NCBI GenBank assembly: GCA_947585795.1
Contig: CANPXG010000011.1
Coordinates: 1-52,520, forward strand
Length of the DNA: 52,520 nt
Origin: an uncultured Clostridia bacterium
Lineage (GTDB): Bacteria > Bacillota > Clostridia > UBA1381
Direction of reading: 5' to 3'
The translations under genes and the position numbers were made by a program. Every line of letters starts with the position of its first letter. Position 1 is the stretch's first letter. Below the pieces are notes generated by a model, which did not search any database, was not told where the DNA came from, and worked only from the letters and a program-made list of their open reading frames with translations. Below, piece after piece: positions 1 through 24,256 of this stretch.

Positions 1-1167
1 CAGCGCAGGGTTTATTCAACCAATCTTACGGAAAAGGACACGATTTACGGCGGAGCCTTAAAGCTTGAAAACACAATTCGCGAAGCGTATAAGCGTTCAA
101 AGCCGAGCGTAATTTTTGTGCTGACCACCTGCGCCGCCGGCATTATAGGCGATGATGTGGAGAGCGTTACAAACTCGTTGGAGGAGGAGCTGGGCATCCC
201 GATCGTGGCGATTTTCTGTGAGGGATTTCGTTCCAAAATGTGGACGTCCGGTTTTGACGCGGGTTATCACGGTATCGCAAGAAAACTGATAAAGCCTGCC
301 GAAAAAAAACGTAATATAATCAATGTAATAAATTTCTGGGGCAGCGATGTATTTAACAAATGGTTCAACCGATTCGGCTATGAGGCAAATTATCTCACGC
401 CGTATTCGACATATGAGACTATCCGACATTCCTCCGAAGCGGTATGTACCGTTCAGGCGTGCGCGACATTAGGCTCGTATCTCGCGACCGCACTCGATCA
501 GGAATTCGGCGTGCCCGAGCTTAAAAACTCACCGCCCTACGGTATAGCGCAGACCGAAAGATGGTTCAGAGAGTTAGGTCAGCTTATCGGCAAGGAAGAT
601 GAAATAGAGGAATTTCTGAAAGAGGAAAGAGAAAAGTATATGCCCAAAATTGAGGAGCTTCGCAAAAAATTAGCCGGTAAAACCGCGTATGTTACGGCGG
701 GAGCTTCGCACGGTCATTCGCTTCTGGCAATGCTTCAGGAGCTTGGAATGAAAGCCGTCGGCGCGGCGATATTCCATCACGACCCCCAATATGACAGCGC
801 AAGCTCTGACGCGGATACATTGAAGCATACAATAGAGGATTACGGCGACATTCCCAATTATAACGTCTGCAACAAGCAGGAATTCGAGCTTGTAAACGTG
901 CTGAACCGCCTGCGCCCCGATATTCTTTTTGCGCGGCACGGAGGCATGACATTATGGGGCGCAAAATTCGGTATTCCGTCGCTGCTGATTGGCGACGAGC
1001 ATTTCGGCATGGGTTACGAAGGACTTGTTAAGTATGGTGAACAGATACTTGAAACCATTGAAAATAATGAGTTTGTAAAAAATCTTGAAAAACACGCGGT
1101 AAATCCGTATACAAAATGGTGGCTTGAACAGGAGCCGTACACATTCCTGAAGGGAGGCAGAAACTGA
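1..1167 (+). CDS. Nitrogenase-like reductase, NifD-like subunit (5' end missing)
   Basis: The reading frame is open from base 1, so the gene starts before the window. The first visible residues carry TEKDTIYGG, matching the TEKDxxFGG hallmark of NifD/AnfD. TTCAAGIIGDD then matches the third P-cluster cysteine region of NifD, and CEGFR also follows the NifD pattern. The segment where NifD has its cofactor cysteine (the WSGDG region) reads YLTPYSTYETIRH here, with no cysteine, so the substrate site differs from true nitrogenase. A histidine in GDEHFGMGYEGL lies near where the NifD cofactor histidine would fall, by eye only. The stop overlaps the start of the K-like gene by one base. Family membership is solid. 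The substrate is unknown. A nitrogenase-like methylthio-alkane reductase is one possibility because a methionine transporter is next door. Confidence 0.85.
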   Translation, partial: QRRVYSTNLTEKDTIYGGALKLENTIREAYKRSKPSVIFVLTTCAAGIIGDDVESVTNSLEEELGIPIVAIFCEGFRSKMWTSGFDAGYHGIARKLIKPAEKKRNIINVINFWGSDVFNKWFNRFGYEANYLTPYSTYETIRHSSEAVCTVQACATLGSYLATALDQEFGVPELKNSPPYGIAQTERWFRELGQLIGKEDEIEEFLKEEREKYMPKIEELRKKLAGKTAYVTAGASHGHSLLAMLQELGMKAVGAAIFHHDPQYDSASSDADTLKHTIEDYGDIPNYNVCNKQEFELVNVLNRLRPDILFARHGGMTLWGAKFGIPSLLIGDEHFGMGYEGLVKYGEQILETIENNEFVKNLEKHAVNPYTKWWLEQEPYTFLKGGRN

Positions 1168-2504
1168 TGGCAGGACTTATCGAACAAGAGCGTTACGCCT
1201 GCGCCATAGGCGCGCTGCAGACGGTTGTGGCGATCCCGAGAGCGACGCCTATTCTCCACTCCGGTCCCGGCTGCGGAACAATGGTTCAAGGCTTTTTTGA
1301 GCGTTCCACCGGCTATGCCGGAGACAGCACTTCGCCATGTACCAACTTCAGTGAAACGGAGGTCGTTTTCGGCGGCGTAAACCGTTTAAGACAGATCATC
1401 GAAAATACATATAAGGTGCTCGATACGGACTTACAGGTGGTGGTAACGGGCTGTACCGCCGATATTGTAGGCGATGACGTGGCATCGGTAACCGATGAAT
1501 TTTTAGCTGAGGGCAAGCCGATAGTTCATGTGGAAACGGCAGGCTTTAAATCAAACAACTACGTTTCTCACAGTAATGTCGTGAACGCTATTATCGACCA
1601 GTATGTTGACAGGTTTATCGATGAAAATCCGGTGCGGAGCGAGAGGAACCTTGTAAATCTTTTTGCTTCAATTCCGTATCAGGATCCATTCTGGAAGGGC
1701 AATCTGACAGAGTATAAGCGTCTTTTGGAGGGCATAGGCTTAAAGGTAAATGTGCTGTTCGGTCCGTATTCGGACGGTGTGAAGGAATGGCAGACAATAC
1801 CGCGTGCAAACTTCAACATTTTAGTGTCCCCGTGGTATGGAGAACCTATCGCGAAGCACTTGGAGAAAAAGTACGGACAGCCGTATTATCACTTCCGCTA
1901 TGTGCCGATCGGGGCGAACGAAACAACGCGTTTCTTAAAAGAGGTTTTGGATTACGCCATAGAAAACGGCGCGGAAATGGATAAGGAAAAGGCGCTTAAA
2001 TTCATCGACCGGGAGGAGCGTGCCTACTACGAGGAAATAGACAATCTGGCAACATTCCTTTTGGAATTTCGTTACGGGCTGCCCAATCACGTTCATATCC
2101 TGCATGATGCCGGCTATGTCGTAGGATTATCGAGATTTCTGCTTCACGAAACCGGAATTGTGCCGAAGGAGCAATTTATAGTTGACAATACTCCGAAAGA
2201 GTATATCGACCGTATCACGGCAGATTTGAAGGGTGCGTCGGATAAGCGTGATATACCGGTATATTTCAATCCCGATGCGGGCGCGGCGCAGGATATAATC
2301 AGAAAGGTCAGTCATAGCGGACGCGGTCTTATAATCGGCAGCGGTTGGGATAAAGAGCTCGCAAAGGAAAAGGATTACGATTTTCTTTCCGCATCACTTC
2401 CGACTCCGTACAGATTGGTGCTCACAACAAATTATGTCGGTTATACCGGCGGTTTGAGAGTAATCGAGGACATCTACGATACGGTTCTTTACACTTATAG
2501 ATAA
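1167..2504 (+). CDS. Nitrogenase-like reductase, NifK-like subunit
   Basis: This 445-residue protein belongs to the nitrogenase component 1 family. Three cysteines match the P-cluster ligands of NifK: Cys12 in ERYACAIGALQ, Cys36 in HSGPGCG and Cys96 in VTGCTADIVGDD. Cys58 sits in PCTNFSETEVVFGG, equivalent to the NifK CxSDSMTEDAAVFGG segment. It lacks the long N-terminal extension of true NifK. The start ATG overlaps the upstream TGA by one base, with GGGAGG about ten bases upstream, so the two subunits should be translationally coupled and form a heterotetramer. It likely passes electrons through a P-cluster-like centre from a NifH-type reductase that is not in the window. It is not a canonical nitrogenase gene, since the partner subunit diverges at the cofactor site. 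Confidence 0.87.
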   Translation: MAGLIEQERYACAIGALQTVVAIPRATPILHSGPGCGTMVQGFFERSTGYAGDSTSPCTNFSETEVVFGGVNRLRQIIENTYKVLDTDLQVVVTGCTADIVGDDVASVTDEFLAEGKPIVHVETAGFKSNNYVSHSNVVNAIIDQYVDRFIDENPVRSERNLVNLFASIPYQDPFWKGNLTEYKRLLEGIGLKVNVLFGPYSDGVKEWQTIPRANFNILVSPWYGEPIAKHLEKKYGQPYYHFRYVPIGANETTRFLKEVLDYAIENGAEMDKEKALKFIDREERAYYEEIDNLATFLLEFRYGLPNHVHILHDAGYVVGLSRFLLHETGIVPKEQFIVDNTPKEYIDRITADLKGASDKRDIPVYFNPDAGAAQDIIRKVSHSGRGLIIGSGWDKELAKEKDYDFLSASLPTPYRLVLTTNYVGYTGGLRVIEDIYDTVLYTYR

Positions 2505-2522
2505 TATCATCAACACACTGAA

Positions 2523-2557
2523 TATCGGAAGGATATTTTCCTTCCGATAAGTTTTTA
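2523..2557 (+). terminator. Hairpin between the K-like and NifX-like genes
   Basis: A perfect 11-bp stem (TATCGGAAGGA, 2523-2533, with its complement at 2539-2549) and a 5-base loop is followed by GTTTTTAA. It looks like a partial terminator or RNA-processing hairpin that could lower expression of the cofactor gene relative to the two subunits. The T-run is short, so leaky read-through is likely. Confidence 0.6.
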
Positions 2558-2571
2558 AGGAGGGGATTATT

Positions 2572-2904
2572 ATGGCACTGATAGCGGTTGCAAGCACAGA
2601 CGGCATTAATATCAATGAGCATTTCGGCAGGGCGGCGGTTTTCAGGATATATGAAATAAAGAACGGCGGTTACTCTTATGTAGAGCTGCGCGACGCTGTT
2701 GCCGCATGTCAGCACGCGCACAGTCATAACCAAACAAATTTTGACAGAATAATAGAACTGCTTTCCGGCTGTGACGCGGTATTCGCCGGTAAAATCGGCG
2801 AAGGAGCGGCGGCGTACCTTATTTCAAAAGGTCTGAGAGTGTTTGAGGTCTCGGGAGAGATAAACGCGGTCTTTGAAAAGATCATAGAAGATAAAATCTT
2901 TTAA
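2572..2904 (+). CDS. Dinitrogenase iron-molybdenum cofactor family protein (NifX/NafY-like)
   Basis: This 110-residue single-domain protein has the NifX/NifB-C-terminal family pattern. It starts ALIAVASTDGININEHFGRA, where the HFGRA motif is diagnostic, and has a second glycine-rich segment, VFAGKIGEGAAAYLISKG. Members bind or carry Fe-S or Fe-Mo cofactor precursors. The start ATG follows AAGGAGGGGATTATT. A His-rich stretch (CQHAHSHNQ, about residues 44-52) could bind metal. It lies 67 bases after the K-like gene on the same strand, which suggests that it delivers a metallocluster to the nitrogenase-like enzyme. The role is inferred from family and neighbourhood. Confidence 0.85.
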   Translation: MALIAVASTDGININEHFGRAAVFRIYEIKNGGYSYVELRDAVAACQHAHSHNQTNFDRIIELLSGCDAVFAGKIGEGAAAYLISKGLRVFEVSGEINAVFEKIIEDKIF

Positions 2905-2956
2905 AAAACGCAGCGCAGCAACAGATCTGTCATAAATGCAATATGAACAAAAATAA

Positions 2957-3003
2957 AAAATCTCTTGAGAAATGACTTTTCGGTCATTTTTCAAGAGATT
3001 TAT
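2957..3003. terminator. Bidirectional terminator between convergent operons
   Basis: A long hairpin (AAATCTCTTGA paired with TCAAGAGATTT, extended inward by GAAATGAC with GTCATTTT) has A- and T-rich flanks. It lies between the 3' ends of the nitrogenase-like operon and metQ, so it can stop transcription from both sides. Confidence 0.85.
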
Positions 3004-3024: not shown

Positions 3025-3930
3025 TTATTCCGCGGGAATCACCGCACCGTTATAATGTTCCTCTATAAACTTCTTTGTTTCATCACTTTTGAGTTCCTCC
3101 ACAAGCGCAGTGATTGCGGGATCATCCTTATCCTCGGCACGTACCGCGATTATATTTGCATACGGTGAATCCTTGCTCTCGCGGAATAAATACTTCGATG
3201 TGTCTATTCCCGCCTCGATAGCTTTATTTGTATTAATAATATATATATCAAAATCATTCGCAAGACCTATGACTTGATCTTCGTCAATTTCCGTTATTGT
3301 TACAGGCTTTATGTATTCTTTAATATCCGTAACTCCTGCTCTCAGTCCGGATAGATTTTCATCAAGCTTTATAAAGCCCGCCTCTTCAAGAATTTTAAGA
3401 GCTCTGTATTCGTTTGTCGAGTTGTTGGGCACAACGATCGTCGCATTATCGGGTATATCCTCAAGTCTTTCATATTTTTCCGAGTATGCCGCTATTGGCT
3501 CGATATGTATGCCGCCCGCGCTCACGAGAGTATCGCTGTTTGTTTCATTATACTCCTCAAGATACGGCAGGTGCTGGAAAAAGTTAAAATCAACCTCACC
3601 GACAGAAACGCGCTCATTTGTTGTCGCGTCGGAAGCCGTTGCAACAAGGTCTATTTTTATACCCCGCTTTTCAAGCGCCGGTTCAACAAACTCTATAAGC
3701 TCTGAGTGAGGAGTCAGATCCGTAATTCCCTTTAATACAACATATCCGTCCTTATCCGTTTCAAAATGACTGCCTGTGAGCTTTGCTCCGCCGCCGGTTT
3801 GTCCGTCGGAAGCCGTATTTGCCGCAGAATTGACATCGCTGTTCTGATTGGAAGCGTTATTGGCGCTTCCACAGGCTGAAACAATTAAAACCAACATTGC
3901 CGCCGTTAATATAAATGTAATCTTTTTCAT
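3025..3930 (-). CDS. metQ: Methionine/amino-acid ABC transporter lipoprotein, NlpA/MetQ family
   Basis: This 301-residue substrate-binding protein opens with a lipoprotein signal (MKKITFILTAAMLVLIVSAC), with Cys20 as the lipidation site. A low-complexity Asn/Ser/Gly linker to about residue 50 leads to the NlpA domain (LKGITDLTPHSELIEFVEPALEKRG). GEVDFNFFQHLPYLEEYN and VPNNSTNEYRALKILEEAG are typical MetQ blocks. It captures methionine or a related thioether at the outer face of the membrane for the MetI/MetN pair encoded upstream. It is last in the operon, 13 bases after metI, with AGGAGG before the ATG. Ligand specificity cannot be read from sequence: relatives bind L- or D-methionine, and some bind other amino acids. 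Confidence 0.9.
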   Translation of the reverse strand: MKKITFILTAAMLVLIVSACGSANNASNQNSDVNSAANTASDGQTGGGAKLTGSHFETDKDGYVVLKGITDLTPHSELIEFVEPALEKRGIKIDLVATASDATTNERVSVGEVDFNFFQHLPYLEEYNETNSDTLVSAGGIHIEPIAAYSEKYERLEDIPDNATIVVPNNSTNEYRALKILEEAGFIKLDENLSGLRAGVTDIKEYIKPVTITEIDEDQVIGLANDFDIYIINTNKAIEAGIDTSKYLFRESKDSPYANIIAVRAEDKDDPAITALVEELKSDETKKFIEEHYNGAVIPAE

Positions 3931-3943
3931 AATAAAAATCCTC

Positions 3944-4654
3944 CTAAATTATATGCCATTTTTTTAATAAAAAATTTGATATTTTATCGCCTAAAAACTG
4001 TATGAGCTGAACTATGATAATCAACACAAGTATTGTGGCGAACAGCATATCATGCTGATAACGTTGAAATCCGTAACGGACGGCTATATCACCTATGCCG
4101 CCAGCTCCGAAATTACCCGCAAGCGCGGTCATAGAAACTATTGCGATAAGCGCTGTCGTAAATGCTCTTACCATAGACGCCTTCGATTCGGGAATAATTA
4201 CATAAAATATGAGTTGACGCGTGTTGCTTCCCATAGCCTTCGCAGCTTCGATTTTACCCTTTGAAACCTCAATCAGAGCGCTTTCAACCATCCTTGCAAA
4301 CATTGGTATACAGCTTGCCGCCAATGCTAATATGCACGCGTTCGCACCGTAGCCCTTACCGAGAATAAGCCTTGCCAAAGGCAATGTTACAATAATCATA
4401 ATCATTTCGGGCAGCGAGCGAAGACAGTTTACAATCGTTCCGACAATTCTGTTAAACCATTTTAACGGAAATATACCGTCCGCTTGTGTTATATATAAAA
4501 GTACTCCAATTGTTATACCAAATACAAGCATAATCAAAGCGGCAACAGATACCATATAAAGAGTATCCCATGTCGCGGGCAGTATTTCTCCCCATACCTT
4601 TGCGCTGAATGTACTTTTAAGCACTTCCCATAATGAATTACTTCTAAGACTCAT
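3944..4654 (-). CDS. metI: Methionine ABC transporter permease, MetI family
   Basis: The 236-residue membrane permease has about five hydrophobic segments. The cytoplasmic coupling motif is EAAKAMGSNTRQLIFYVIIPES, close to residue 130-150. The downstream segment ALAGNFGAGGIGDIAVRYG is typical of MetI. Its start overlaps the 3' end of metN by four bases (ATGA), so the two are translationally coupled. With MetN it forms the transmembrane pore for the substrate that MetQ delivers. It is slightly longer than typical MetI (about 217) because of an N-terminal leader of roughly 20 residues. Confidence 0.92.
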   Translation of the reverse strand: MSLRSNSLWEVLKSTFSAKVWGEILPATWDTLYMVSVAALIMLVFGITIGVLLYITQADGIFPLKWFNRIVGTIVNCLRSLPEMIMIIVTLPLARLILGKGYGANACILALAASCIPMFARMVESALIEVSKGKIEAAKAMGSNTRQLIFYVIIPESKASMVRAFTTALIAIVSMTALAGNFGAGGIGDIAVRYGFQRYQHDMLFATILVLIIIVQLIQFLGDKISNFLLKKWHII

Positions 4655-5445
4655 ATGCCATCTCCTTCTCCGTATAAGTCATCTTTTCTGAATGAACTGT
4701 AAACATCTATAAAAATGCGCCCCGTTTTGCTGTTCGGATTCTGAAAAATACCCCGCACACTGCCTGATTCCGTTACAACTCCGTTTTCCAGAACAGCCAT
4801 GTTGCTGCATATGTATTTTATCGCTTCAAGCTCATGCGTTATAAGAAGTATTGTTATTCCGAACTTCTTATTGATTTCCCTCAGCAAATCAAGCACCGAA
4901 AGTGTCGTTTGGGGATCAAGCGCGCTTGTAGCCTCATCGCTGAGTAATACATCGGGTTGATTGGCAAGCGCCCTGCCTATTCCCACTCTTTGCTTTTGTC
5001 CTCCGGAAAGCTGTCCCGGATAGGCATCTCTCTTATCCTCCAGCCCTATCAAAGACAAAATCTCTTCGACACGGCTGTTTATTCTATCTTTGCTCCACCC
5101 GTCAAGCATAAGCGGATACGCGATGTTTTTAAAAACACTCTTCGATTCAAACAGATTAAACTGCTGAAAAATCATTCCGATTTTTCGCCTCCGCAGAGCA
5201 AGCTCCTTTTTGCTTAAGCCTGTAATATCAACTCCGTCTATGATGATTTGTCCGCTGTCCGGCTCTTCAAGGCGGTTTATGCATCGCGCAAGTGTGGATT
5301 TTCCCGCCCCGCTGAAGCCCACAATACCGAAAATGTCACCCTTTTCTATGTTGAGATCAATGCCTTTAAGCACCCGTGTTTCCTCTCCTGATCTTTTTTT
5401 GCCGTAAAATGTTTTATGTATATCTCTTATCTCTATAAAACTCAT
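4651..5445 (-). CDS. metN: Methionine ABC transporter ATPase, MetN-like, without the NIL domain
   Basis: This 264-residue ATPase has Walker A GFSGAGKST, a Q-loop FQQFNLFESK, signature LSGGQKQRVGIGRAL, Walker B VLLSDEATSALD and a switch His in LLITHELE. It powers uptake through MetI. Canonical MetN is about 340 residues and ends in an ACT-like NIL domain that binds cytoplasmic methionine and shuts the transporter down. This protein stops soon after the ATPase core (EGDGI), so that feedback should be absent. The start ATG follows AAGAAGTGATAAT. It is the first transporter gene, behind a tRNA-like element and a short ORF. Assignment rests on MetI and MetQ beside it. Confidence 0.88.
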   Translation of the reverse strand: MSFIEIRDIHKTFYGKKRSGEETRVLKGIDLNIEKGDIFGIVGFSGAGKSTLARCINRLEEPDSGQIIIDGVDITGLSKKELALRRRKIGMIFQQFNLFESKSVFKNIAYPLMLDGWSKDRINSRVEEILSLIGLEDKRDAYPGQLSGGQKQRVGIGRALANQPDVLLSDEATSALDPQTTLSVLDLLREINKKFGITILLITHELEAIKYICSNMAVLENGVVTESGSVRGIFQNPNSKTGRIFIDVYSSFRKDDLYGEGDGI

Positions 5446-5847: not shown

Positions 5848-5900
5848 AAATCATATTAAATCTATGGGAATAATATATTTATTTAATATGGGTGGATAAA

Positions 5901-7289
5901 ATGAACCAAGAGATAATAAATCAAGCGATATATGAAAAATACATAACTCCGACAAAATCAAAAATCCGAAAATTTATAGGAATTGAGATTGAAATGCCGA
6001 TCGTAAATCTTAATAAAGAGCCGGTCGAGGAAGCTGTAATTTTTGAAATGACAAAAGCCTTCCGCGCTCATTTCAATTTCTCTCCAATCGGTTTTGACGC
6101 GGACGGAAACGCTTACTCCATGCAGGACGGCGCCACGGGCGATGACCTTTCCTTCGACTGCTCCTACTCCAATCTTGAGCTGTCGCTCGGCAAGGGTGAA
6201 AATCTGCACGAGATCAAACGGCGGTTTGACGCGTATTATACATATATAAACGGCTTTTTATCGAAGTATAACTACACGCTTACCGGAATGGGGATTAACC
6301 CGTACTATCATATAAACCGCAATAAGCCGATACCGAACGAACGATACAGAATGCTCTATCATCATCTGCATTCGTACCCGAAGTACGAAAACAACGGCTT
6401 CGCGTTTCATCATTTTCCGACATTCGGCACATTCACAAGCACGTCACAGGTGCAAATTGATATTTTTTACGATGATTTAATACCGGTGATAAACACCTTC
6501 GGCAGACTGGAGCCGTTTAAATCGCTGCTGTTTGCGAACTCGCTCATGGATGAGGAATCGGATCTGCTTTGCGCGCGCAATATGCTCTGGGAACGCAGTA
6601 TGCAGGGATGTAATCCGCATAATATCGGTATGTTTGAATACGAGCTGAAGGATGTAAACGATTTGGTTGAATATATTAAAACCACAAGCATTTACTGCAC
6701 AATGCGTGACGGCAAATATGTTAATTTCGAGCCTGTGCCGATAAACGAATATTTGAAACGCGATAAAATAGATGGTGAATATTTCGACGGCGAGCGTTAC
6801 GCGGATATTGAAATTACACCTTGCATTGAGGATCTGGAACATCTGAGAACCTTCAAATTTGAGGATCTGACCTACCGCGGAACAATAGAATTCCGCAGCA
6901 CCTGCTGCCAACCGATCTCAGACAGTATGTGCGTCGCGGCTTTTCACATAGGCTTACTTGAGCGCGTGCAGGAGCTTCAGGGACTGCTTGATGCGGATAA
7001 TGTCATATACTCGCACGGATACAGCGCGTCGGAATTACAGCGTATGCTTTCAAAGAACACGCTGCCCGATTTCGTAAACAAGGACAGCCTTGTAAAGGTG
7101 CTGTTACGTATCCTGGAGCTCTCAAAATCTGGACTTAAAGAGCGCGGAATGAACGAGGAGATATTTTTGGAGCCTCTTTATGAGCGTGCAAAAAAGCTCT
7201 CAAATCCCGCAAAAATTATGCTTGAAGGGCTAAACAACGGTACTCCGCCGGAGCATTATATCAAAGAATATTCACGGCTTTTGAGGTGA
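5901..7289 (+). CDS. Glutamate-cysteine ligase family enzyme (GCS2-type)
   Basis: This protein of about 462 residues belongs to the GCS2 (plant/alphaproteobacterial-type) glutamate-cysteine ligase superfamily. An ATP/metal-binding region near the N-terminus reads FIGIEIEMPIVN, and SNLELSLG follows. A later block, FEDLTYRGTIEFRSTCCQPISD, resembles the arginine-containing substrate region. Such enzymes make a gamma-glutamyl amide from glutamate, ATP and cysteine or another amine. I chose ATG 5901 because GGGTGG lies at 5890-5895; an in-frame GTG at 5892 has no ribosome site. It is the first gene of a three-gene operon. The amine substrate is unknown. Two ligases side by side argue against a simple glutathione pathway. 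Confidence 0.82.
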   Translation: MNQEIINQAIYEKYITPTKSKIRKFIGIEIEMPIVNLNKEPVEEAVIFEMTKAFRAHFNFSPIGFDADGNAYSMQDGATGDDLSFDCSYSNLELSLGKGENLHEIKRRFDAYYTYINGFLSKYNYTLTGMGINPYYHINRNKPIPNERYRMLYHHLHSYPKYENNGFAFHHFPTFGTFTSTSQVQIDIFYDDLIPVINTFGRLEPFKSLLFANSLMDEESDLLCARNMLWERSMQGCNPHNIGMFEYELKDVNDLVEYIKTTSIYCTMRDGKYVNFEPVPINEYLKRDKIDGEYFDGERYADIEITPCIEDLEHLRTFKFEDLTYRGTIEFRSTCCQPISDSMCVAAFHIGLLERVQELQGLLDADNVIYSHGYSASELQRMLSKNTLPDFVNKDSLVKVLLRILELSKSGLKERGMNEEIFLEPLYERAKKLSNPAKIMLEGLNNGTPPEHYIKEYSRLLR

Positions 7290-7295
7290 TTGGAC

Positions 7296-8522
7296 TTGTA
7301 TCTGGATAACGAATATATATTTGACGGTTATTTCGGTTTGGAACGCGAAACGCTGCGTGTATCATCCGACGGCTCTATCGCCAATACCCTGCACCCTTTC
7401 GCGGATAACGAATATCTCGACCGCGATTTTTGCGAAAATCAGCTTGAGCTTATCACTCCGGTGTGCGGCAGCATAGACTCGCTTATGGCTGTTCTCAAAC
7501 AACTGGACGATTATGTGAAAACCACACTTTTAAAATCCGGCGAATACATATGGCTGTGCAGCAATCCGCCGCATATCAAGTCCGAGCGTGACATTCCCAT
7601 CGCCGAGTTCGGAGGCGACAAAGAATTTAAGCGTAATTACCGCATAAATCTTGAACGCCGCTACGGAAAACGGCTTATGCTGTATTCGGGAATACACTTT
7701 AACTTTTCTTTTTCTGAAAAACTGCTTCGATCGCTGTGCGGCGGCGAGTATGATTACAAAATATTTAAAAATGCGCTCTATTTCCGCTTGTCGAAGCAAG
7801 TATACCGTTACAGCTGGCTGCTTGTGCTTCTGACCGCGGCAAGTCCCGTGTATGATAAGTCCTTAGACGGCGATAACCTGTCCGGCAGCGCCTTTGACGG
7901 ATACGCTTCCATGCGCTGCGGCGAGCGCGGCTATTGGAATGAATTTATGCCGATACTTGATTATACGGATTTGAGCTCATATGTAAGCTCTGTAAACAAT
8001 TATGTGGACAAAGGTATGCTGTTCTCATCCGGCGAGTTGTACCTTCCCGTTCGCTTAAAACCACATTCCGCCGGCAATCTTGATTCTCTTATCAAGGACG
8101 GTGTGAACCATATCGAGCTTCGTATGTTTGACTTAAATCCGCTGTCACCTTTGGGGATATGCGGCGCGGATTTGGAATTTGCACACTATTTTTTGATTTA
8201 CCTTTTATTGCTGCCGGACTTTGAGTTTACAAGCGGACTTCAGGAAACGGCAGTAAAAAATTATAAATCGGCGGCAAGATACGATCTGTCGGAGATAACA
8301 ATAAACGGCTATAACGCAAAAGACGCCGCGTTAGGGATTCTTAATGATATGAGCTGTTACTTTAAGGATTTTAAAAGGGTTTTGAAAATAATAGATTTTC
8401 AGAAGAGTAAAATAGTTAAAAATGAGCGCTACAGTGTCAGAGTATATAACAAGCTCCACGGGGATTTTCAAAGCGAGATGTTTAGAATTACAAAACAGTA
8501 CGGAGGTGAGAGTAATGTGTGA
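7296..8522 (+). CDS. Second glutamate-cysteine ligase homologue (GshA/GCS1-like)
   Basis: The protein has about 408 residues. Its N-terminal FGLERETLRV is the signature of the GshA (GCS1) and GshF N-terminal ligase family, followed by DFCENQLELITP. A central segment MLYSGIHFNFSFSEKL matches the GshA SGIHYNxS block, and HIELRMFDLNPLSPLG matches its C-terminal part. It is shorter than E. coli GshA (518) and lacks the GshF ATP-grasp half, so it should make only a gamma-glutamyl dipeptide. The likely start is TTG 7296, nine bases after GAGG (7283-7286). TTG 7290 would leave no spacing. The 3' end overlaps the amidohydrolase gene by eight bases. Confidence 0.83.
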   Translation: MYLDNEYIFDGYFGLERETLRVSSDGSIANTLHPFADNEYLDRDFCENQLELITPVCGSIDSLMAVLKQLDDYVKTTLLKSGEYIWLCSNPPHIKSERDIPIAEFGGDKEFKRNYRINLERRYGKRLMLYSGIHFNFSFSEKLLRSLCGGEYDYKIFKNALYFRLSKQVYRYSWLLVLLTAASPVYDKSLDGDNLSGSAFDGYASMRCGERGYWNEFMPILDYTDLSSYVSSVNNYVDKGMLFSSGELYLPVRLKPHSAGNLDSLIKDGVNHIELRMFDLNPLSPLGICGADLEFAHYFLIYLLLLPDFEFTSGLQETAVKNYKSAARYDLSEITINGYNAKDAALGILNDMSCYFKDFKRVLKIIDFQKSKIVKNERYSVRVYNKLHGDFQSEMFRITKQYGGESNV

Positions 8523-11051: not shown

Positions 11052-12647
11052 TTATCCGACTTCTTTCATCTCCGCAGCTTCTTCGCCGAAAAACTGCTCA
11101 TAGCTCGCGTTGAGATGTATTTCCACATCGTAGCCCTTCCCCACTCTTATCTCGCTTATCAACTGACATATTATCATTTTCTTCTGCTCCATAGATGCCT
11201 CCTCAAACTCGTCCGCCCATGTTACAAACTGGTTATAGTAAAAGTCAAGTTTACCGAGCACGTCCGTCTGCTGCTCCAATTCTGTGTTGCACTCGTGCAG
11301 TAGCTTCTCTGTTTCCGCGATTTCTTCCTTCGTGGAATTTATAGACATCGACAGCACATCCATTGGGAACGCACTCTCGCCGCACAAACATTTTCCTACC
11401 TCTGACGATAATTCTTTGTGCCGTTTTTGTAGCTTTTCATGCTTATCGGCAAGCTCGCGCTTGATTTTGCGTTTCTCTGTCAATTCCTTCTTGTAACGGA
11501 TTTCAAGAGCTTTATCCTTTGGTGTTTGCTTGATTTCCGCCAAATAATGCCGTACTACTCCAAGTACGATTTTATCAATTCTGTCGGCTTGATAGACACT
11601 CTGACCGTCGCAGGTACTCAGTTTCCTCGCGCGATGATAACATACATACCGAATATAGTCGCTCTTTCTGACCGTACCATCTTTCAAGGTATAAATATCT
11701 GTTCCTCCCGATGCGACAAGTTTTCCTCCGCAATGCGCGCAGTATATGTTGCCGGAAAGCAGCGTTTTTCCTTTGGTAGTTCTCGCTATATGCTGCTTTT
11801 CATCATTCTTTTTGGAACGCTGCTTCAGAATTTTCTGTACCTCGTCAAAAACATTCTCGTCTATTATGACAAGGTTTTCGAGCTTCGGCGACGATGTGTC
11901 TCCCGCAACATAGTATCCGCAGTAAAGCCTATTCTTCAGAATACGGTTAATTGTATTGCACTGGAAGTCGCTACCGTTACGCGTCTTTACGCCGAGATTA
12001 TTCAGATACTCAGCCATTCTGTACGAGCCGTAACCCTCGTTGAGCGTCTTGCTGAAAATCATCTTGACATATTCGGCTTCACGCGCGTCTATCTCCAAAT
12101 CCTTAACAGGCTGACCTTTCTTATTCATACGTCCGCGGTTTACCGCTCTGTAACCGAGCGGGGTCGCGCCGCCGTGATATGTACCCTCGGCTGTAAGCTG
12201 TGCCATGCGTGTTTTTAATCGCATAGAGGTTTTAACGCTTTCGCCATTTGCCTGCCAGTAGCGTATATAATTAAGAAGTTTATCGGTCTGGTTCTCAAAT
12301 CTCTGCTGTCCCTCCTGCGTACTCCAGACCTCTATCCCCTGCTTTACAAACCATTCCACAACAAACGGGGTTTCATCGTCTCGTCTGCCGAGTCTGTCGA
12401 ACATATACACAAGAAGCACGTCAAATTCATGATTGAGCGCGGCTTCCTTCAAGTCCTGAATGGCATCTCTGTCATTCGCCGATACTTTGAAACCCGATAT
12501 GCCCTTTTCGTAAAACTCCTTAGCGATAATCCAGCCGTTGTTTTCAGCGAACTCGTGACAAGCGATTTTCTGCATCGGAATATCGTCTTTCATTTTGTCC
12601 ACCTGTTTTTTCGTTGATACTCTGTATAAGCAATAAGTCTTTTTCAT
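11052..12647 (-). CDS. Large serine recombinase
   Basis: The 531-residue protein has the resolvase catalytic domain at the N-terminus with nucleophile Ser11 in YRVSTKKQ and a downstream MFDRLGRRDDE helix segment. The recombinase domain follows (GYGSYRMAEYLNNLGVKTRNG), then a zinc ribbon (CAHCGGKL...CYHRARKLSTC, about residues 305-345) and a coiled coil (about 385-460). It cuts and rejoins DNA at att sites and could integrate, excise or invert DNA. The ATG follows AAGGAGAACAGCAAC and a perfect promoter lies upstream. No other genes of a mobile unit flank it closely, so the DNA it moves is unclear. Confidence 0.92.
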   Translation of the reverse strand: MKKTYCLYRVSTKKQVDKMKDDIPMQKIACHEFAENNGWIIAKEFYEKGISGFKVSANDRDAIQDLKEAALNHEFDVLLVYMFDRLGRRDDETPFVVEWFVKQGIEVWSTQEGQQRFENQTDKLLNYIRYWQANGESVKTSMRLKTRMAQLTAEGTYHGGATPLGYRAVNRGRMNKKGQPVKDLEIDAREAEYVKMIFSKTLNEGYGSYRMAEYLNNLGVKTRNGSDFQCNTINRILKNRLYCGYYVAGDTSSPKLENLVIIDENVFDEVQKILKQRSKKNDEKQHIARTTKGKTLLSGNIYCAHCGGKLVASGGTDIYTLKDGTVRKSDYIRYVCYHRARKLSTCDGQSVYQADRIDKIVLGVVRHYLAEIKQTPKDKALEIRYKKELTEKRKIKRELADKHEKLQKRHKELSSEVGKCLCGESAFPMDVLSMSINSTKEEIAETEKLLHECNTELEQQTDVLGKLDFYYNQFVTWADEFEEASMEQKKMIICQLISEIRVGKGYDVEIHLNASYEQFFGEEAAEMKEVG

Positions 12648-17761: not shown

Positions 17762-20700
17762 CTATCTCCAATATTTAAAATGGTAGATTGTATTTGAAAC
17801 TATATCATATAATACTTCCAGTGTATATTCTTTTCCATTTTTTATCATAGAGATATAGTACATATACGCATTAGACCCTTGTGGGTCTGGTATAGACTCG
17901 CCATATTCAATTGCTTGCTGCAATATTTGTATAGGCACATATCTTCCAGCTTCGCTCATATGCTTAGCAGCAGTTTCTGAAAAATTGAACAAAGTGCTAT
18001 TTGTATCAGCTATATTTCCTAATACTCTTCCACCTTTTATGAATGCTGCTATGGTCATGGTAGAAATAGTAAAGTAAGCAATTTCATCGATAACATCTCG
18101 TCTATGTGCTATAATTTTTGCCCCTTTTACGTATTCTATGGCGTTGTAGATTTTATCTAAACTATTATTATCCCCATTTACAATAGAATTTAAAGCATCT
18201 GCTATTCCACCCCAGTTTTCATAATACTCTACTTCGTTAGCAATTATTGCTTTTGCATTCATAGCTATATCATATGCATCTTCAAATTCTACTGTATATG
18301 ACGCATAACATTCCATAATATTTCTGGCATAGTATATATCATCTAATGCATAAATAATCTCATCATAACTCATTCCCCGCGGGTCAACAAATATAACCGG
18401 ATTATTCCCGCAATAAGCATACCAATTCAATCCGTCCCGCGCAGGGTCTTCGCTGATAAAACGTCCTGTTACAGGTTTGTAATATCTTGCTCTAAGGTAG
18501 GTGCTGTCCGTTTCAGTATCATAATACTCACCACAATATCTGAACGGATTTGTATCATTATCAGCCTTGTTTATCTCAACACCAAAAGCATCATAGCTAT
18601 ACTGCTTTGTTATATTTCCGCTGCTATTGGTAAGTTGCACAACATCGCCGTGTCCGTTATAGGTATAGAAGCTTTCGTTGCTGCCCTTCTTTGACGAAAT
18701 AAGCTGTATTCCGCGGATATACTTCGTTACCGTACCGTTTGTAACATCACCCGCTATATTCGTTCCGTCCCAAATATGGCTTGTGGTTACTCCGTCAACC
18801 GTTTTGCTCATACGCAGTCCGTCGCCGTTGTAGGTGTAACTTGTTGTCTTGCCGTTTTGCATCGTTCTTGTGAGCTGATTCCAACTGTCGTATTCGCTGT
18901 AGCTGTTCGTAGCGCCGCCCGCAGGTTCTACGCCCATGCTCGGTGCGCCGGTACTGCTTGCTGTGGTTGTCATACTTGAAATCTGGTTGCCGTTCGGGTC
19001 ATACCAAAAATCGGTTGTTTCCGAAGATTCATTTAATTTTTTGGTCTGATTTCTAAGACGATTGTTCTTGTCATATGTATAACTTGTAGTATAGTTTTCA
19101 TTTCCCGTAACGCTCAGCTGACTTCTGTTGCCATAAATGTCATACTGATAGCTGTATGTATTATCCGGCGTTTGCTCCTTGACAAGACGATTGACACCGT
19201 CATAGGTGTAATTTGTCGTACCTTTGCTTACTCCCGCAACGCTCTCTGTTTTACTCTCTTGGTTTCCGTCTACATAATATGTATAACTGTACTTGGAAAT
19301 CTGCGTACTGCCGTTCGCGTTATTTACTTCGGTAAGCAGACTTGCAAGGTTATAACTGTAGTCTGTTGTCTGACTGCCGTATGAGGACTTTTTCAGCGTT
19401 CCGTCGGGATTGTATGTGTACGCAGCCTTTACAGTGCCGTTCTCATATACCTTTGTAAGCTGATTCGTTTTATCGTAGTCATAGGTAAGCGTATATTGAA
19501 CCGTACCGCCTTTTGTGAGCTTAAAGCTCTTACGGTTGCCGTTTATATCATAATTATACTCCTTAACGCTGCCGTCTGTCAAGCTTTCTTTGAGTAATCT
19601 TCCAAGACCGTCATAGGTGGACGTAGTAGTTACGCCACCGCCCGTCATGCTTGTACGATTGCCTTTCATATTATATGTATACGTGTAGGTATCATCGCTT
19701 GATTTGCTCGAACTCTTTTTCGTAAGCTGATTTAAACCGTCATAGTTATATGTTAACGTGTATCCGTTTCTGTCAACGGTTTTTATGAGATTGCCGTTGA
19801 TGTCGTAAGTGTTTGTAACCCTCTGTCCCAAAGCGTCTGTCTGCGATGTACACCTGTTCATGCTGTCATACGCATATTTAGTAACAGCGTAATTGCTCGA
19901 ACCGCTGACTTTATCCAGTTCCGTGATTTTAAGAGCATCTACATCACCTGTGTACATTCTGAGCACGTTACCAACGCTGTCATAATAATACTGCACGCAG
20001 TCGGCAACATCGCTTCCATCGAAAGTGCTTACCTTAGTCGGCTGGTTCTGCCAGTTATACGTGTACTCCGTCGTCGTGTACGACGCGCTCGAACCAACGG
20101 CATTATTCGCTGTCTGAGACTTTGTAAGATTGCCGTTTCCGTCATAATAATATTTATTTGTCGAATATACCGTGCTTGTACCGTTCTTTTGGAAAGGAAT
20201 CTGTTCCTGAATCAGTCTGCCGAGATTATCATAGGTGTTTGTGGTTACATTTCCGTTTTTATCCTTAACCGTTATCAGATTTCCCAACCCGTCATAGGTG
20301 TTTGTAATACTGTAGCCGTTAACGTCTGTTTCCTTGGTGACATTTCCCACCGCGTCATACTCATATTTCGCCGAATATACGGTTGAACTCCAGCCCTCAT
20401 CGGCAGCTCGCGGCTCGCGGACGGTTTTCACATTGCCGAGATAGTCATATGTGTATGTAGTGACAGCTGACTTATTTACGCCGTTTTCCTTATATTGAAC
20501 ATCTTCTTTGACTACGTTGCCGTATATATCGGAATACTGTATATTCTTAGTGTTTTGGGCTTCCGTATCTCCAATAACGGTTGTTGTAACCTTAAATTGC
20601 TTTTCGGTGGGCAGCACTTCGTACTCATAAGTTTGTTTGGATAAAGTTTTACCGCTATTATCTATGACCTCGCTTGATGTTTTTCTTCCCAAAGCATCAA

Positions 20701-23700
20701 ATGAAGTTACTGTTTTTGAGTTGTTGTCTACGTCACTATATGTCTGTACAATATCCTGTCCGTTTGCAAACGCATATTCGTGTGATGTTATTTTTTTATC
20801 GTCAGATACGTTATATTCAGAACTCAAATTGCCAACGCTGTCATAATCATACCTAATTGTTTTACCATTTTCATTTCTCACTGCGACTTGGTTTTTTACG
20901 ATTACATTTGTCCGGTCAAACTGAACAGTATAGGTGTATGTTCTGTAGCTGTCATCGGGATTTGTTGTTTTGGTTAATCGGTTATTTTTATCATATTCAT
21001 AGCTGTAAATATTACCGTTGCTGTCCGTTTCTTTAATTACGTTGCCCCAACAGTCATAAACATAGCTATGCTGAACGGCGCTTACTGCGTTTCCGTTAGC
21101 ATCTTTCAAATCTGATTCTTTAGCTGATGTAATATAAGCGTTAGATATGACATTATTACTATCTGCATACGCAAACGATACTGTGGCATACTGGCTCATA
21201 TTACCGTTTACACCATATTGATTTACTTTTGTTACATTGCCATATGAATCATACTCGTATGTTGACTTTTTCTTTGTGCTGTTATTTTCCAATACTGTGC
21301 TTTCCGTTATAGTCTTGTGGTTACTGCTCGGAGTATAGTTTTCTATAATGCTTTTGCCCGATTCGCTCTTATACGACTTTTTAATCGGATAATGATATGA
21401 GGAATCATATGTATATGTAACTTTTCTATCATTATCATTATTGATTGTTTCTGTCAAAACATTTCCCCAATCATCGTATGTTCGTTGAACACTTGTTTCG
21501 ACGAATTGCGTGTGGCTTTTGCTTTCAGGGTCAGAGAATGTTTTTCTTTGTTGTTTAGTGCATAGATTCCTTTTATCATATGTATATGATGTTGTAGTTC
21601 TATCATATGCCGGATAAGAAGTTATGTCGTTAACCGTTTGTTTTTTTATAGCTTCAACGGTAGCTTCGGATAGTAATATCTCATCATTCTGGTAAATGTA
21701 CGAATTGGTTGTCAATACTTTATCATCAATGGATCTTGCATTTATATTCCTTCTTTCTATGCCGACAACAAATTTTACGTCATATGGTATCTCTGTTATA
21801 TTTCTGTAGTGAGGATATCCCGACGGTGTTTTAATATCCCGTGCATTACTGGTTTTATCTTTTACGGATATTTCATGAGTAATATTTTCAACGCCAACCG
21901 TATTATTACTAATTTTATTAGTTTCATCATTGTAATAATAATTTCTTAAGATTGCACTTGTGTATGATGGATATTCTCTAATTCCATCTGTACCAAAATT
22001 ATCTGTTATTGACATTTGGTTGAAATTATATGTAGCACCTGTAGGATATACTACTGAAGACATATATGAATATGGAATTTCAGTTCCATGCATCTTTATG
22101 TTCTTATCTGTTAAAGAAATCATGCCATAGGTATTGCTATAAGTATATTTTGTTGATAATCCTTCTGAGTCCGTAACCAAAGTTAGATTATATAAGCAAG
22201 GATTAGGTTGAAAATAAAGACCATCCGTTACATCAACAATATATTCTTCGCCGTCAATATCTGTACGAGTTAATCCTACGTTAAGTATTTTATCCTTAGC
22301 ATATGTGATAGTTTTTATAGTGTTTGTCTTTGGCTCCTTTATAGTAATATCTATAAAATATCTGTCGTAAGTAACATATTCTTGCGCCAACTGACTCCAG
22401 CCTTGAGCGGTTTCTTTTCTATTATAGTCAAATGTGATCTCTCGCCCGACACTGTCTATTATCTTATTCAGTACATAGTAGCTGTGAATATTTTTCCCAT
22501 AATAAAAACGAATTTTATTACCAAATCTGTCTTCAATACCAAGTAATTCTCCATTAGTGCCAAAGTAATACTTTTTACCGTCTGATTCTGTTAACAAATA
22601 TCCTGTTGAACGACCATCAAATTTACCGCCATAATATGTTAGCTGCATATCTTTTAGTTTATACCCAACAAGATTTGAATAACTAGCACCTCGTTCATAA
22701 CACCAAGTACCTTTAGTTCCATAATGAAGATATTCATATGGTTCATATTCTAACTCACTATCAACATATCTCTGTTCATCTTTGATTTCTATATATGGAA
22801 AATCAAATTCCCAGCCCACACCTAAATCAGAGAAGCTTTTTGTCTTATTGATCAATTTTTCTGTTGTATAGTAAGGAATCTCCGGAATTGTTACATAAAC
22901 CTCTTCTTTAGTGATATTGTTATCATCAACTAGTATAGAGATTTCTTTGATTTTTCCATGACTAAATGAAATAGTCTTATCGTATTTTCCATTGCCGACA
23001 TCTTGTTTTGCTTGATTAACATCTGAGGTGTGTTCGAACAAGCCGGAGATATTCCCTCTCTCTATTTGTTCATCTACATATTGGTGCTCTACTGCACTAT
23101 ATATATAATAATTTCCGTACTGCTGCGGTGGTAGCAATGTAACCGAATAAGAGTTGGTAGCAGCGCTTGGTGTACTTCCGTTTGTTGTGCTCTCTCTGTA
23201 TGTTATTTTTATATCTGCAACTGCGTAAACTCTAAAATATCCTATTTTACGATTTTGATAATTATCAGATAATGCAACACCTGCATCAAGCATATTAGCT
23301 CTTTCTGAACTATATACTCTGTTTAAGTTTAAATCTAAACCATTGATACCCTTTAAACTAAGGTCATTTTCAACCACAGTAAGATTTCCGCTGACCGGAT
23401 TAATATCATAGCCTGTTTTTATGGTGTATCCACTTGTTTTTTCATTATCGTATTTTGCTGTAGGATATATTGAACCATTATATGTGGTTATAATGTCATC
23501 GTTATCAGTTGACGCAGTTAAAGATATTTCTTTGTTATTATTCGGAATACTTTTGAGAATAACGGGAGGATTATTTTCTTCAGCCCAGTCTTCACTAATA
23601 TCAGCATCCAAATTATCTGAATTTTCAATAACGCCGCTTTCCTTTGCTTCGACTATTTCGGATTCACTCAGACCGTTTTTCAACAATAAATCGTCTAGTC

Positions 23701-24256
23701 CTAATTGATTGAACACTGTCTCAATATCATCAGGTTCTCCATCATACATTATTTCCGAATTTTCATTTACCTCAATATTTTCCGACAAATTTAATTCTTC
23801 TTTCACCTGTTGCCATGTCATTTCTTGAGATGGACTTTCGATTTTATCATCTTCCGCCATTAATGCAATTTGCTGCTGAGCAATTTCCGTGCGCGACCCT
23901 TTTATTTTCAGTATTTCATATGGTGTTTTGTCACACTTTTCAGAAAGCTTGATGGCATTTGAAATGTCCAACATAGAGAATCCTAAATCATATAAATCTT
24001 TAATATCTTTTCCGTTCAACTCCGCGCCCGGATTTACATACTCCTCTTTATATTCAGCATCGTTGTCATCTTCCTCACCCGCGCCGGAAAACATTTCAGA
24101 AAAAATATTTTTCGCTTTATCTGCCCCATACGATATTGCGAACTCAATTTCATTGCCTGTAACTTCCGAATCAGCAATTTCTCCCGCATATGCGATACTG
24201 GGCAAAAACATCGAAATTGTCAGCAGCGAAGCAATTATCTTTTTTATCTTACTCAT
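17762..24256 (-). CDS. RHS/YD-repeat polymorphic toxin, secreted
   Basis: This 2164-residue protein has a signal peptide (MSKIKKIIASLLTISMFLPS, cleavage likely after AYA at 25). A variable N-terminal region runs to about residue 280. Residues about 280-1950 are RHS/YD repeats with many YDxxGNxxxxxxxN units (for example YDSVGNVLRMYTGD). The shell closes with YLRARYYKPVTGRFISEDP and NPVIFVDPRG. The last 202 residues after DPRG are the delivered toxin region. Their final 75 residues (FSETAAKHMSEAGRYVPIQI...) recall BECR/DUF4258-like ribonuclease tips, by eye. It likely acts in contact-dependent competition. An S8 protease gene sits directly upstream in the operon and may process it. WapA of Bacillus is the nearest known analogue. 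Confidence 0.9.
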   Translation of the reverse strand: MSKIKKIIASLLTISMFLPSIAYAGEIADSEVTGNEIEFAISYGADKAKNIFSEMFSGAGEEDDNDAEYKEEYVNPGAELNGKDIKDLYDLGFSMLDISNAIKLSEKCDKTPYEILKIKGSRTEIAQQQIALMAEDDKIESPSQEMTWQQVKEELNLSENIEVNENSEIMYDGEPDDIETVFNQLGLDDLLLKNGLSESEIVEAKESGVIENSDNLDADISEDWAEENNPPVILKSIPNNNKEISLTASTDNDDIITTYNGSIYPTAKYDNEKTSGYTIKTGYDINPVSGNLTVVENDLSLKGINGLDLNLNRVYSSERANMLDAGVALSDNYQNRKIGYFRVYAVADIKITYRESTTNGSTPSAATNSYSVTLLPPQQYGNYYIYSAVEHQYVDEQIERGNISGLFEHTSDVNQAKQDVGNGKYDKTISFSHGKIKEISILVDDNNITKEEVYVTIPEIPYYTTEKLINKTKSFSDLGVGWEFDFPYIEIKDEQRYVDSELEYEPYEYLHYGTKGTWCYERGASYSNLVGYKLKDMQLTYYGGKFDGRSTGYLLTESDGKKYYFGTNGELLGIEDRFGNKIRFYYGKNIHSYYVLNKIIDSVGREITFDYNRKETAQGWSQLAQEYVTYDRYFIDITIKEPKTNTIKTITYAKDKILNVGLTRTDIDGEEYIVDVTDGLYFQPNPCLYNLTLVTDSEGLSTKYTYSNTYGMISLTDKNIKMHGTEIPYSYMSSVVYPTGATYNFNQMSITDNFGTDGIREYPSYTSAILRNYYYNDETNKISNNTVGVENITHEISVKDKTSNARDIKTPSGYPHYRNITEIPYDVKFVVGIERRNINARSIDDKVLTTNSYIYQNDEILLSEATVEAIKKQTVNDITSYPAYDRTTTSYTYDKRNLCTKQQRKTFSDPESKSHTQFVETSVQRTYDDWGNVLTETINNDNDRKVTYTYDSSYHYPIKKSYKSESGKSIIENYTPSSNHKTITESTVLENNSTKKKSTYEYDSYGNVTKVNQYGVNGNMSQYATVSFAYADSNNVISNAYITSAKESDLKDANGNAVSAVQHSYVYDCWGNVIKETDSNGNIYSYEYDKNNRLTKTTNPDDSYRTYTYTVQFDRTNVIVKNQVAVRNENGKTIRYDYDSVGNLSSEYNVSDDKKITSHEYAFANGQDIVQTYSDVDNNSKTVTSFDALGRKTSSEVIDNSGKTLSKQTYEYEVLPTEKQFKVTTTVIGDTEAQNTKNIQYSDIYGNVVKEDVQYKENGVNKSAVTTYTYDYLGNVKTVREPRAADEGWSSTVYSAKYEYDAVGNVTKETDVNGYSITNTYDGLGNLITVKDKNGNVTTNTYDNLGRLIQEQIPFQKNGTSTVYSTNKYYYDGNGNLTKSQTANNAVGSSASYTTTEYTYNWQNQPTKVSTFDGSDVADCVQYYYDSVGNVLRMYTGDVDALKITELDKVSGSSNYAVTKYAYDSMNRCTSQTDALGQRVTNTYDINGNLIKTVDRNGYTLTYNYDGLNQLTKKSSSKSSDDTYTYTYNMKGNRTSMTGGGVTTTSTYDGLGRLLKESLTDGSVKEYNYDINGNRKSFKLTKGGTVQYTLTYDYDKTNQLTKVYENGTVKAAYTYNPDGTLKKSSYGSQTTDYSYNLASLLTEVNNANGSTQISKYSYTYYVDGNQESKTESVAGVSKGTTNYTYDGVNRLVKEQTPDNTYSYQYDIYGNRSQLSVTGNENYTTSYTYDKNNRLRNQTKKLNESSETTDFWYDPNGNQISSMTTTASSTGAPSMGVEPAGGATNSYSEYDSWNQLTRTMQNGKTTSYTYNGDGLRMSKTVDGVTTSHIWDGTNIAGDVTNGTVTKYIRGIQLISSKKGSNESFYTYNGHGDVVQLTNSSGNITKQYSYDAFGVEINKADNDTNPFRYCGEYYDTETDSTYLRARYYKPVTGRFISEDPARDGLNWYAYCGNNPVIFVDPRGMSYDEIIYALDDIYYARNIMECYASYTVEFEDAYDIAMNAKAIIANEVEYYENWGGIADALNSIVNGDNNSLDKIYNAIEYVKGAKIIAHRRDVIDEIAYFTISTMTIAAFIKGGRVLGNIADTNSTLFNFSETAAKHMSEAGRYVPIQILQQAIEYGESIPDPQGSNAYMYYISMIKNGKEYTLEVLYDIVSNTIYHFKYWR

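Follow-up and report, generated by a model that had tools for sequence, protein, structure and literature searches.

The 52,520-nucleotide contig CANPXG010000011.1 of an uncultured Clostridia bacterium (assembly GCA_947585795.1; 'the window' below means this whole stretch) begins with the genes of a nitrogenase-like reductase of group IV-A, a group that has been named Nfa (PMC9147875, PMC11423573; these and the other papers given by PMC number are cited for the excerpts available of them). Judged by its sequence and surroundings, the enzyme is likely to be a thioether-type reductase of carbon–sulfur (C–S) bonds, similar to the methylthio-alkane reductase Mar of Rhodospirillum rubrum, which would act on an imported compound and pass methanethiol to methionine synthesis. 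Its pocket is altered and its substrate is probably not that of Mar. This enzyme of a gut-type Clostridia thus probably cuts C–S bonds for methionine rather than fixing nitrogen.

The reductase genes and their placement

The window holds residues 103–490 of the D subunit, as numbered on the full-length protein of a sibling locus (L009), the contig edge having removed the 5′ end of the gene. The K subunit and a NifX-type gene follow, and convergent with this run are metQ, metI and metN (3025–5445). The features are listed here; clade rows are aligned D sequences of the window's clade, and MarD numbering is that of structure 9fmg, which agrees with the residues named in the excerpt of PMC12552129.

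1..1167, + strand: D subunit of a nitrogenase-like reductase, group IV-A (Nfa); last 388 residues, frame open from base 1
130..132, + strand: third P-cluster Cys of D (C146 in L009); Cys in 58/58 clade rows
241..255, + strand: Trp and Phe (MarD W195 and F199) replacing NifD Gln191 and His195; 58/58 clade rows, by alignment with NifD
460..462, + strand: cluster-ligating Cys, residue 154 of the window's D, equivalent to MarD Cys270; 58/58 clade rows, role from PMC12552129
775..777, + strand: active-site His (MarD His375); 58/58 clade rows
934..939, + strand: Arg-His of Mar Loop I (MarD R428-H429); 58/58 clade rows, role from PMC12552129
1167..2504, + strand: K subunit with P-cluster Cys C12, C36 and C96; from open reading frame, profile match, alignment and K tree
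2572..2904, + strand: NifX/NafY-type cluster carrier, Nitro_FeMo-Co (PF02579), E 3.2e-21
3025..3930, − strand: metQ, NlpA/MetQ substrate-binding lipoprotein; profile match
3944..4654, − strand: metI, permease; profile match
4651..5445, − strand: metN, ATPase; TIGR02314, 319 bits, under its 500-bit cut-off

The Pfam E-values (Oxidored_nitro, 1.6e-75 for D and 3.7e-65 for K; 3.2e-21 for the NifX protein) mean that these matches are not due to chance. As the initial annotation had read from the sequence, a NifX/NafY-like protein follows K, D carries the motifs TEKDxxxGG and CxxGIIGDD (here TEKDTIYGG and CAAGIIGDD), and K keeps all three P-cluster cysteines, which are Cys in 102/102 aligned K rows. 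The same annotation held that D lacks the cofactor cysteine region of NifD; this was wrong, because residue 154 is the equivalent of MarD Cys270. The third P-cluster cysteine of D is the only one inside the window; the first two fall to the left of the contig edge, and all 57 clade rows that cover those positions keep them.

In the PDB, the window's subunits match the R. rubrum Mar structures 9fmg and 9d9u with 391 bits for D and 384 for K, against 125 and 67 for the next entries. A plain Mar orthologue was the candidate that these matches suggested, and it was set aside after the trees. Sequences for these were drawn from 80 named loci, kept as the best among 507 relatives; from 391 genomes of the class (38 matched); from the family to which an Endomicrobium metagenome-assembled genome (MAG) belongs (59 genomes, 8 matched); and from plasmid records, which yielded outgroups and two relatives (L160 and L161). 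Candidates longer than 300 aa numbered 286, three of which fell outside 380–720 aa and were removed. The remaining sequences, 147 for D and 136 for K, came down to 108 and 101 after reduction. The trees were built without P. riograndensis, Heliophilum and isethionate reductase (Isr) sequences. One of the plasmid relatives, pTS2 of Treponema saccharophilum (L161), has two nitrogenase-like DK pairs together with NifX genes and an ABC transporter, and a type I-C CRISPR locus lies next to them.

The window's D lies within a clade of 58 rows (SH-aLRT 100), and R. rubrum MarD stands with 11 other rows in a separate clade of 12 (SH-aLRT 100). A more careful tree of 48 rows supports both clades at 100/100, with 17 rows on the window's side and, on that of Mar, R. 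rubrum and 10 others; the deeper order is less sure, the fork at which the two nearest sister groups join the window's clade having 90/89. The K tree places the window's K in a clade of 59 rows that includes five Chlorohelix-group rows, with the Mar K rows outside it; L056_8, which carries an Nfa label by adjacency, groups with Mar. Since the D of Endomicrobium proavitum (G417) falls within the window's D clade (69% identity for D and 68% for K), the window's enzyme belongs to group IV-A. By sequence, therefore, it is a member of the Nfa clade and not an orthologue of Mar (group IV-C), to whose D subunit it is 42% identical.

These placements bear on the possibility that the enzyme is simply a clostridial Mar acting on the R. 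rubrum substrates methylthio-ethanol and dimethyl sulfide. The cluster ligands and fold are alike and the kinds of neighbour genes overlap, but with D and K both in clades apart from Mar we regard this as unlikely. Furthermore, Nfa-type and Mar-type DK genes occur together in R. albus AR67, in Ruminococcus UBA7013 and in Pectinatus, in the last two within one run of sulfur genes, and the presence of both types in three genomes argues that their substrates differ. At the edge of the Pectinatus locus (L056) stands a further DK-like pair, the third there, which is truncated.

The cluster site

The window's D carries Trp195, Phe199, Cys270, His375, Arg428 and His429 of MarD, and has the P-cluster cysteines in common with Mar as well. 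According to the excerpt of PMC12552129, the cluster of Mar is bound by Cys270 with His429 as second ligand, and Arg428 together with His429 is possibly a hallmark of Mar. The predicted fold, from an AlphaFold model of D only and of the uncut D from a same-genus genome (G009), is also nearest to Mar.

Two positions of the pocket set the clade apart. MarD His194, which is near S2B, is His in 12/12 Mar rows and in 0/58 Nfa rows, where the position is Ile, Val or Met (Met in the window). Gln74 is Gln in 11/11 Mar rows covering it, whereas 50/57 clade rows have Met or Thr there and 2 have Gln. The pocket thus differs from that of Mar, which supports the earlier suggestion that the substrate may be new.

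Mo-nitrogenase NifDK shares the superfamily fold, the P-cluster cysteines and the cluster cysteine, but identity is about 20% by structure alignment. In an alignment with Rhizobium NifD, both L009 and E. proavitum have Trp, Phe, Met and Cys where NifD has Gln191, His195, His442 and Val70. The equivalent of Val70 falls outside the window, to its left, and was taken from those two proteins; the His442 position is Met in 58/58 clade rows. Val70, Gln191 and His195 are described as essential for N2 reduction in the excerpt of PMC12552129. The cut-offs of the curated NifD/NifK models were not reached, with 164 of 486 bits for TIGR01862, 118 of 654 for TIGR01282 and 79 of 427 for TIGR01286, D being a 388-aa fragment.

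The initial annotation had also considered placement with the enzymes of chlorophyll or F430 synthesis. Weak matches to the BchB/BchN models are shared, but the best tetrapyrrole scores are far under the cut-offs (69 of 490 bits for D and 88 of 490 for K; 38 and 35 of 268 for the CfbD model), and with the Mar cluster ligands present and the fold nearest to Mar, a tetrapyrrole enzyme of the DPOR, COR or CfbD type has next to no probability.

Partner genes in close relatives

Of 16 same-genus genomes three have the gene: that of the window itself and two others (G012 and G009) whose D is 99% identical to the window's. In both of the latter, the genes divergent from D encode a NifX-domain protein, a 291-aa NifB-type protein, NifH and a cystathionine gamma-lyase/synthase (CGS), to which G012 adds cysteine synthase (CysK) and O-acetylhomoserine sulfhydrylase (MetY). 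The NifB-type protein scores under the cut-off of the NifB model and aligns with the first two thirds of that model only, so it lacks the C-terminal NifX domain. For the CGS-type protein the best model is cystathionine gamma-lyase/homocysteine desulfhydrase, at 557 bits and so short of the cut-off of 594. NifEN was not seen in these two genomes, where a D query matches D and K only.

The NifH and NifB partners that the initial annotation expected beside the locus are therefore known from the siblings, divergent from D, and were not found in the window or elsewhere in its assembly. A search of that assembly for NifH (PF00142) gave only two partial matches of 33–38 bits on other contigs, presumed to be ParA/MinD-like. 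When the sibling stretch nifB-nifH-CGS-cysK-metY was compared with the assembly, the NifB–NifH side was not found and two short matches of 73–77% were. They are MetY and CysK genes lying side by side on another contig (C20), 44% and 45% identical to the sibling's, so the downstream chemistry would be available to the same organism. The MAG is 86.5% complete in 130 contigs, and the simplest reason for the missing NifB and NifH genes is that it breaks inside D. Because the search of its own genome did not find them, we infer these partners from the siblings.

On the other side, downstream of K, each of the three genomes has its own arrangement. In the window NifX and metNIQ follow, in G012 NifX with SsuABC and MetY, and in G009 neither set. 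MetQ is confined to the window's genome (1/3), neither G009 nor G012 giving a match, and the operon's SsuA occurs in G012 only, the other two assemblies having remote matches of 25–28%.

A conserved sulfur neighbourhood

The clade comprises 87 distinct D sequences, 42 of which have at least 7 kb on both sides (full-flank loci); neighbours were counted within 9 kb, and the controls were 20 hand-picked stretches of 20 kb, 18 from clade carriers and 2 (G378 and G214) from sister-clade carriers. MetY, CGS or CysK genes accompany 39/42 full-flank loci and 0/20 controls. As the 42 include near-duplicates, we also give the figure after dereplication at 93%, which is 22/24 (24 D genes in 23 loci); the 61 found among all 87 loci are a lower bound, because many of these lie on short contigs. 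NifH occurs in 36 of the 42, NifB in 36 and NifX in 39; SsuA-, SsuC- and SsuB-type genes in 18, 19 and 22. With the thresholds unchanged, none of these families turned up in the controls. The metNIQ neighbour to which the initial annotation drew attention recurs, in 8/42 full-flank loci (inside the gene run in L017) and 0/20 controls. Four loci of a deeper clade (F), two of them with full flanks, have none of the sulfur genes.

In the 23 dereplicated loci the commonest neighbour families are D, the MetY/CGS group, K, NifX, NifH, SsuB (with MetN), NifB, SsuA, SsuC and CysK, and then MetQ. Eight further clusters recur in at least two loci (Rrf2 with aminotransferase, LacI, LysR, aminotransferase, M20 peptidase, C39-like peptidase, FtsX and one unmatched), and none of the eight is a P-II protein or ammonium transporter.

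The NifH proteins at Nfa loci are of two types, 79–100% identical to the sibling's NifH at 53 loci and 48–52% at 7; the latter type includes E. proavitum and Sinanaerobacter, and the loci concerned are L009, L179, L052, L068, L078, L082, L083 and L087.

A proposed route to methionine

In the mechanism that we propose, a NifH-type protein with ATP would deliver electrons to the P-cluster in DK, and from there they would pass to an [Fe8S9C]-type cluster, presumably made by NifB and held by the cysteine together with an Arg-His loop like that of Mar. This cluster may be carried by separate NifX/NafY-type proteins, a role proposed because the siblings show no NifEN. The sulfur source would be imported by the adjoining transporter module, MetNIQ in the window and SsuABC in a sibling genome, and the enzyme would reductively cleave this organosulfur compound, in the likeliest case a methyl thioether (R-S-CH3 to R-H and methanethiol). 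MetY could then convert methanethiol to methionine, and the CGS/CysK pair could lead from methionine to cysteine. Methionine salvage has been proposed before for group IV-A MarHDK-like genes, which are found within, or close to, methyltransferase clusters that contain sulfur genes (excerpt of PMC10418091).

MtnA, of the methylthioadenosine (MTA) route, is over its cut-off in only 4 of the 17 carrier assemblies, so methylthioadenosine from the cell itself is an unlikely general source of the substrate. For this reason MTA-derived methylthio-ethanol was rejected as the general substrate, and the same count tells against the plain Mar explanation.

The main alternative substrate is a sulfonate. 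An enzyme like isethionate reductase, releasing sulfite or sulfide with SsuABC as importer, would account for the SsuA-, SsuC- and SsuB-type neighbours, and the Rhodobacter capsulatus IsrBHDK system is itself a group IV sulfur-scavenging enzyme that works with ssuCAB transport (excerpt of PMC11423573). However, NIR_SIR, the sulfite/nitrite reductase family, has no match in 13/17 carrier assemblies, among them E. proavitum and the window's genome; in these sulfite would be a dead end, and Isr-like release of it would not feed the cell. Several of the 17 are incomplete MAGs, although G207 is a single contig, 100% complete, and E. proavitum has a closed chromosome. In the account of PMC11423573 IsrD lacks two of the P-cluster cysteines and keeps one, whereas three are kept here in the rows that reach them, and IsrB is BciD-like rather than NifB-like, whereas B here matches the NifB model, if below its cut-off. 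The sibling SsuA, moreover, reaches 101 bits against a cut-off of 163.5. Mainly because of the cysteine pattern and the lack of a sulfite reductase match in most carriers, we set the Isr-type reading aside and judge it improbable.

Several points weigh against a Mar-like thioether reductase. With His194 not kept and Gln74 rarely kept, the chemistry of Mar is not guaranteed. SsuABC-type transporters indicate sulfonates as much as thioethers, and NIR_SIR is present in 4/17 carriers. Three of the 42 full-flank loci (L086, L090 and L123, the last with MetNIQ) have no MetY, CGS or CysK gene nearby; the window itself shows no MetY, NifB or NifH; and the choice of the best 80 of 507 relatives leans the sample towards near relatives. 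To these must be added the reports on E. proavitum.

Endomicrobium proavitum and nitrogen fixation

In E. proavitum, a bacterium of the termite gut, the locus reads MetY, SsuA, SsuC, SsuB, D, K, a MetQ remnant, NifX, CGS, CysK, NifB, NifX and NifH, and shares with the window's enzyme and its clade the D clade, cluster ligands, partner genes and sulfur neighbours. Its NifH is 50% identical to the sibling NifH. The remnant, at 11457–11708 of L179 between nfaK and nifX, is an 83-aa C-terminal third of NlpA/MetQ, perhaps the trace of a lost metNIQ.

This enzyme has been reported as a nitrogenase. E. proavitum is reported to incorporate 15N2, the IV-A enzyme being its only nif-like genes, and its Nfa, by prediction, has every ligand that N2 reduction needs (excerpt of PMC9147875); that the organism fixes nitrogen is also stated in the excerpts of PMC8399215 and PMC11257099. 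The idea of a group IV nitrogenase that works without NifEN rests on this enzyme, and NifB, NifH and NifX partners are present. The residue alignment nevertheless speaks against the statement about the ligands, with four NifD residues replaced in E. proavitum as in L009, and it cannot judge the 15N2 incorporation. In the excerpt of PMC12552129 no 15NH4 was detected with Mar, which has the same ligands. The recurrent neighbours are sulfur genes, and the P-II genes of E. proavitum lie some 560 kb from its Nfa locus. A nitrogenase without NifEN thus seems to us highly improbable for the window's enzyme. The proposal of a C–S reductase conflicts with the reported N2 fixation by E. proavitum.

We lean slightly towards the view that group IV-A as a whole, the E. 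proavitum enzyme included, consists of assimilatory C–S reductases with a novel substrate rather than nitrogenases, encoded in an operon for methionine and cysteine supply whose transporter module (MetNIQ, SsuABC or none) is exchanged between close relatives. The initial annotation, which had proposed a sulfur-compound reductase akin to Mar, is right in that Mar is the nearest solved structure and relatives occur in gut Clostridia, but the enzyme is of the Nfa type and the neighbourhood adds NifX genes and cysteine and methionine genes that distinguish its cluster from that of R. rubrum. The residue comparison across 58 rows, the interpretation of the E. proavitum locus as an operon of sulfur metabolism, the survey for sulfite reductase and the exchange of transporter modules were not found in the literature searched, which left most subscription journals outside.

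Other genes of the window

Two genes adjoin each other at 5892–8522. One encodes a 465-aa protein whose only match, to GCS2, stays under the threshold at 17.7 bits, the other a glutamate-cysteine ligase (PF04262); genes for a class II amidotransferase and a ThiF protein come next. A large serine recombinase (Resolvase, Recombinase and zinc ribbon) at 11052–12647 is a possible mobile element edge. An RHS-repeat protein of 2164 aa occupies 17762–24256 and adjoins a 960-aa open reading frame (24291–27173), the last 235 residues of which match RCC1 repeats.

Implications

Group IV-A genes have been taken as nitrogen fixation genes in Endomicrobium and Heliophilum, according to the excerpts available. 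If the group IV-A enzymes are sulfur-scavenging reductases, calls of diazotrophy based on them need revision, and rumens and other guts would hold a widespread source of methanethiol and possibly of small hydrocarbons. If, on the other hand, E. proavitum does fix N2 with a Mar-type site, this would overturn the present view of what N2 reduction requires.

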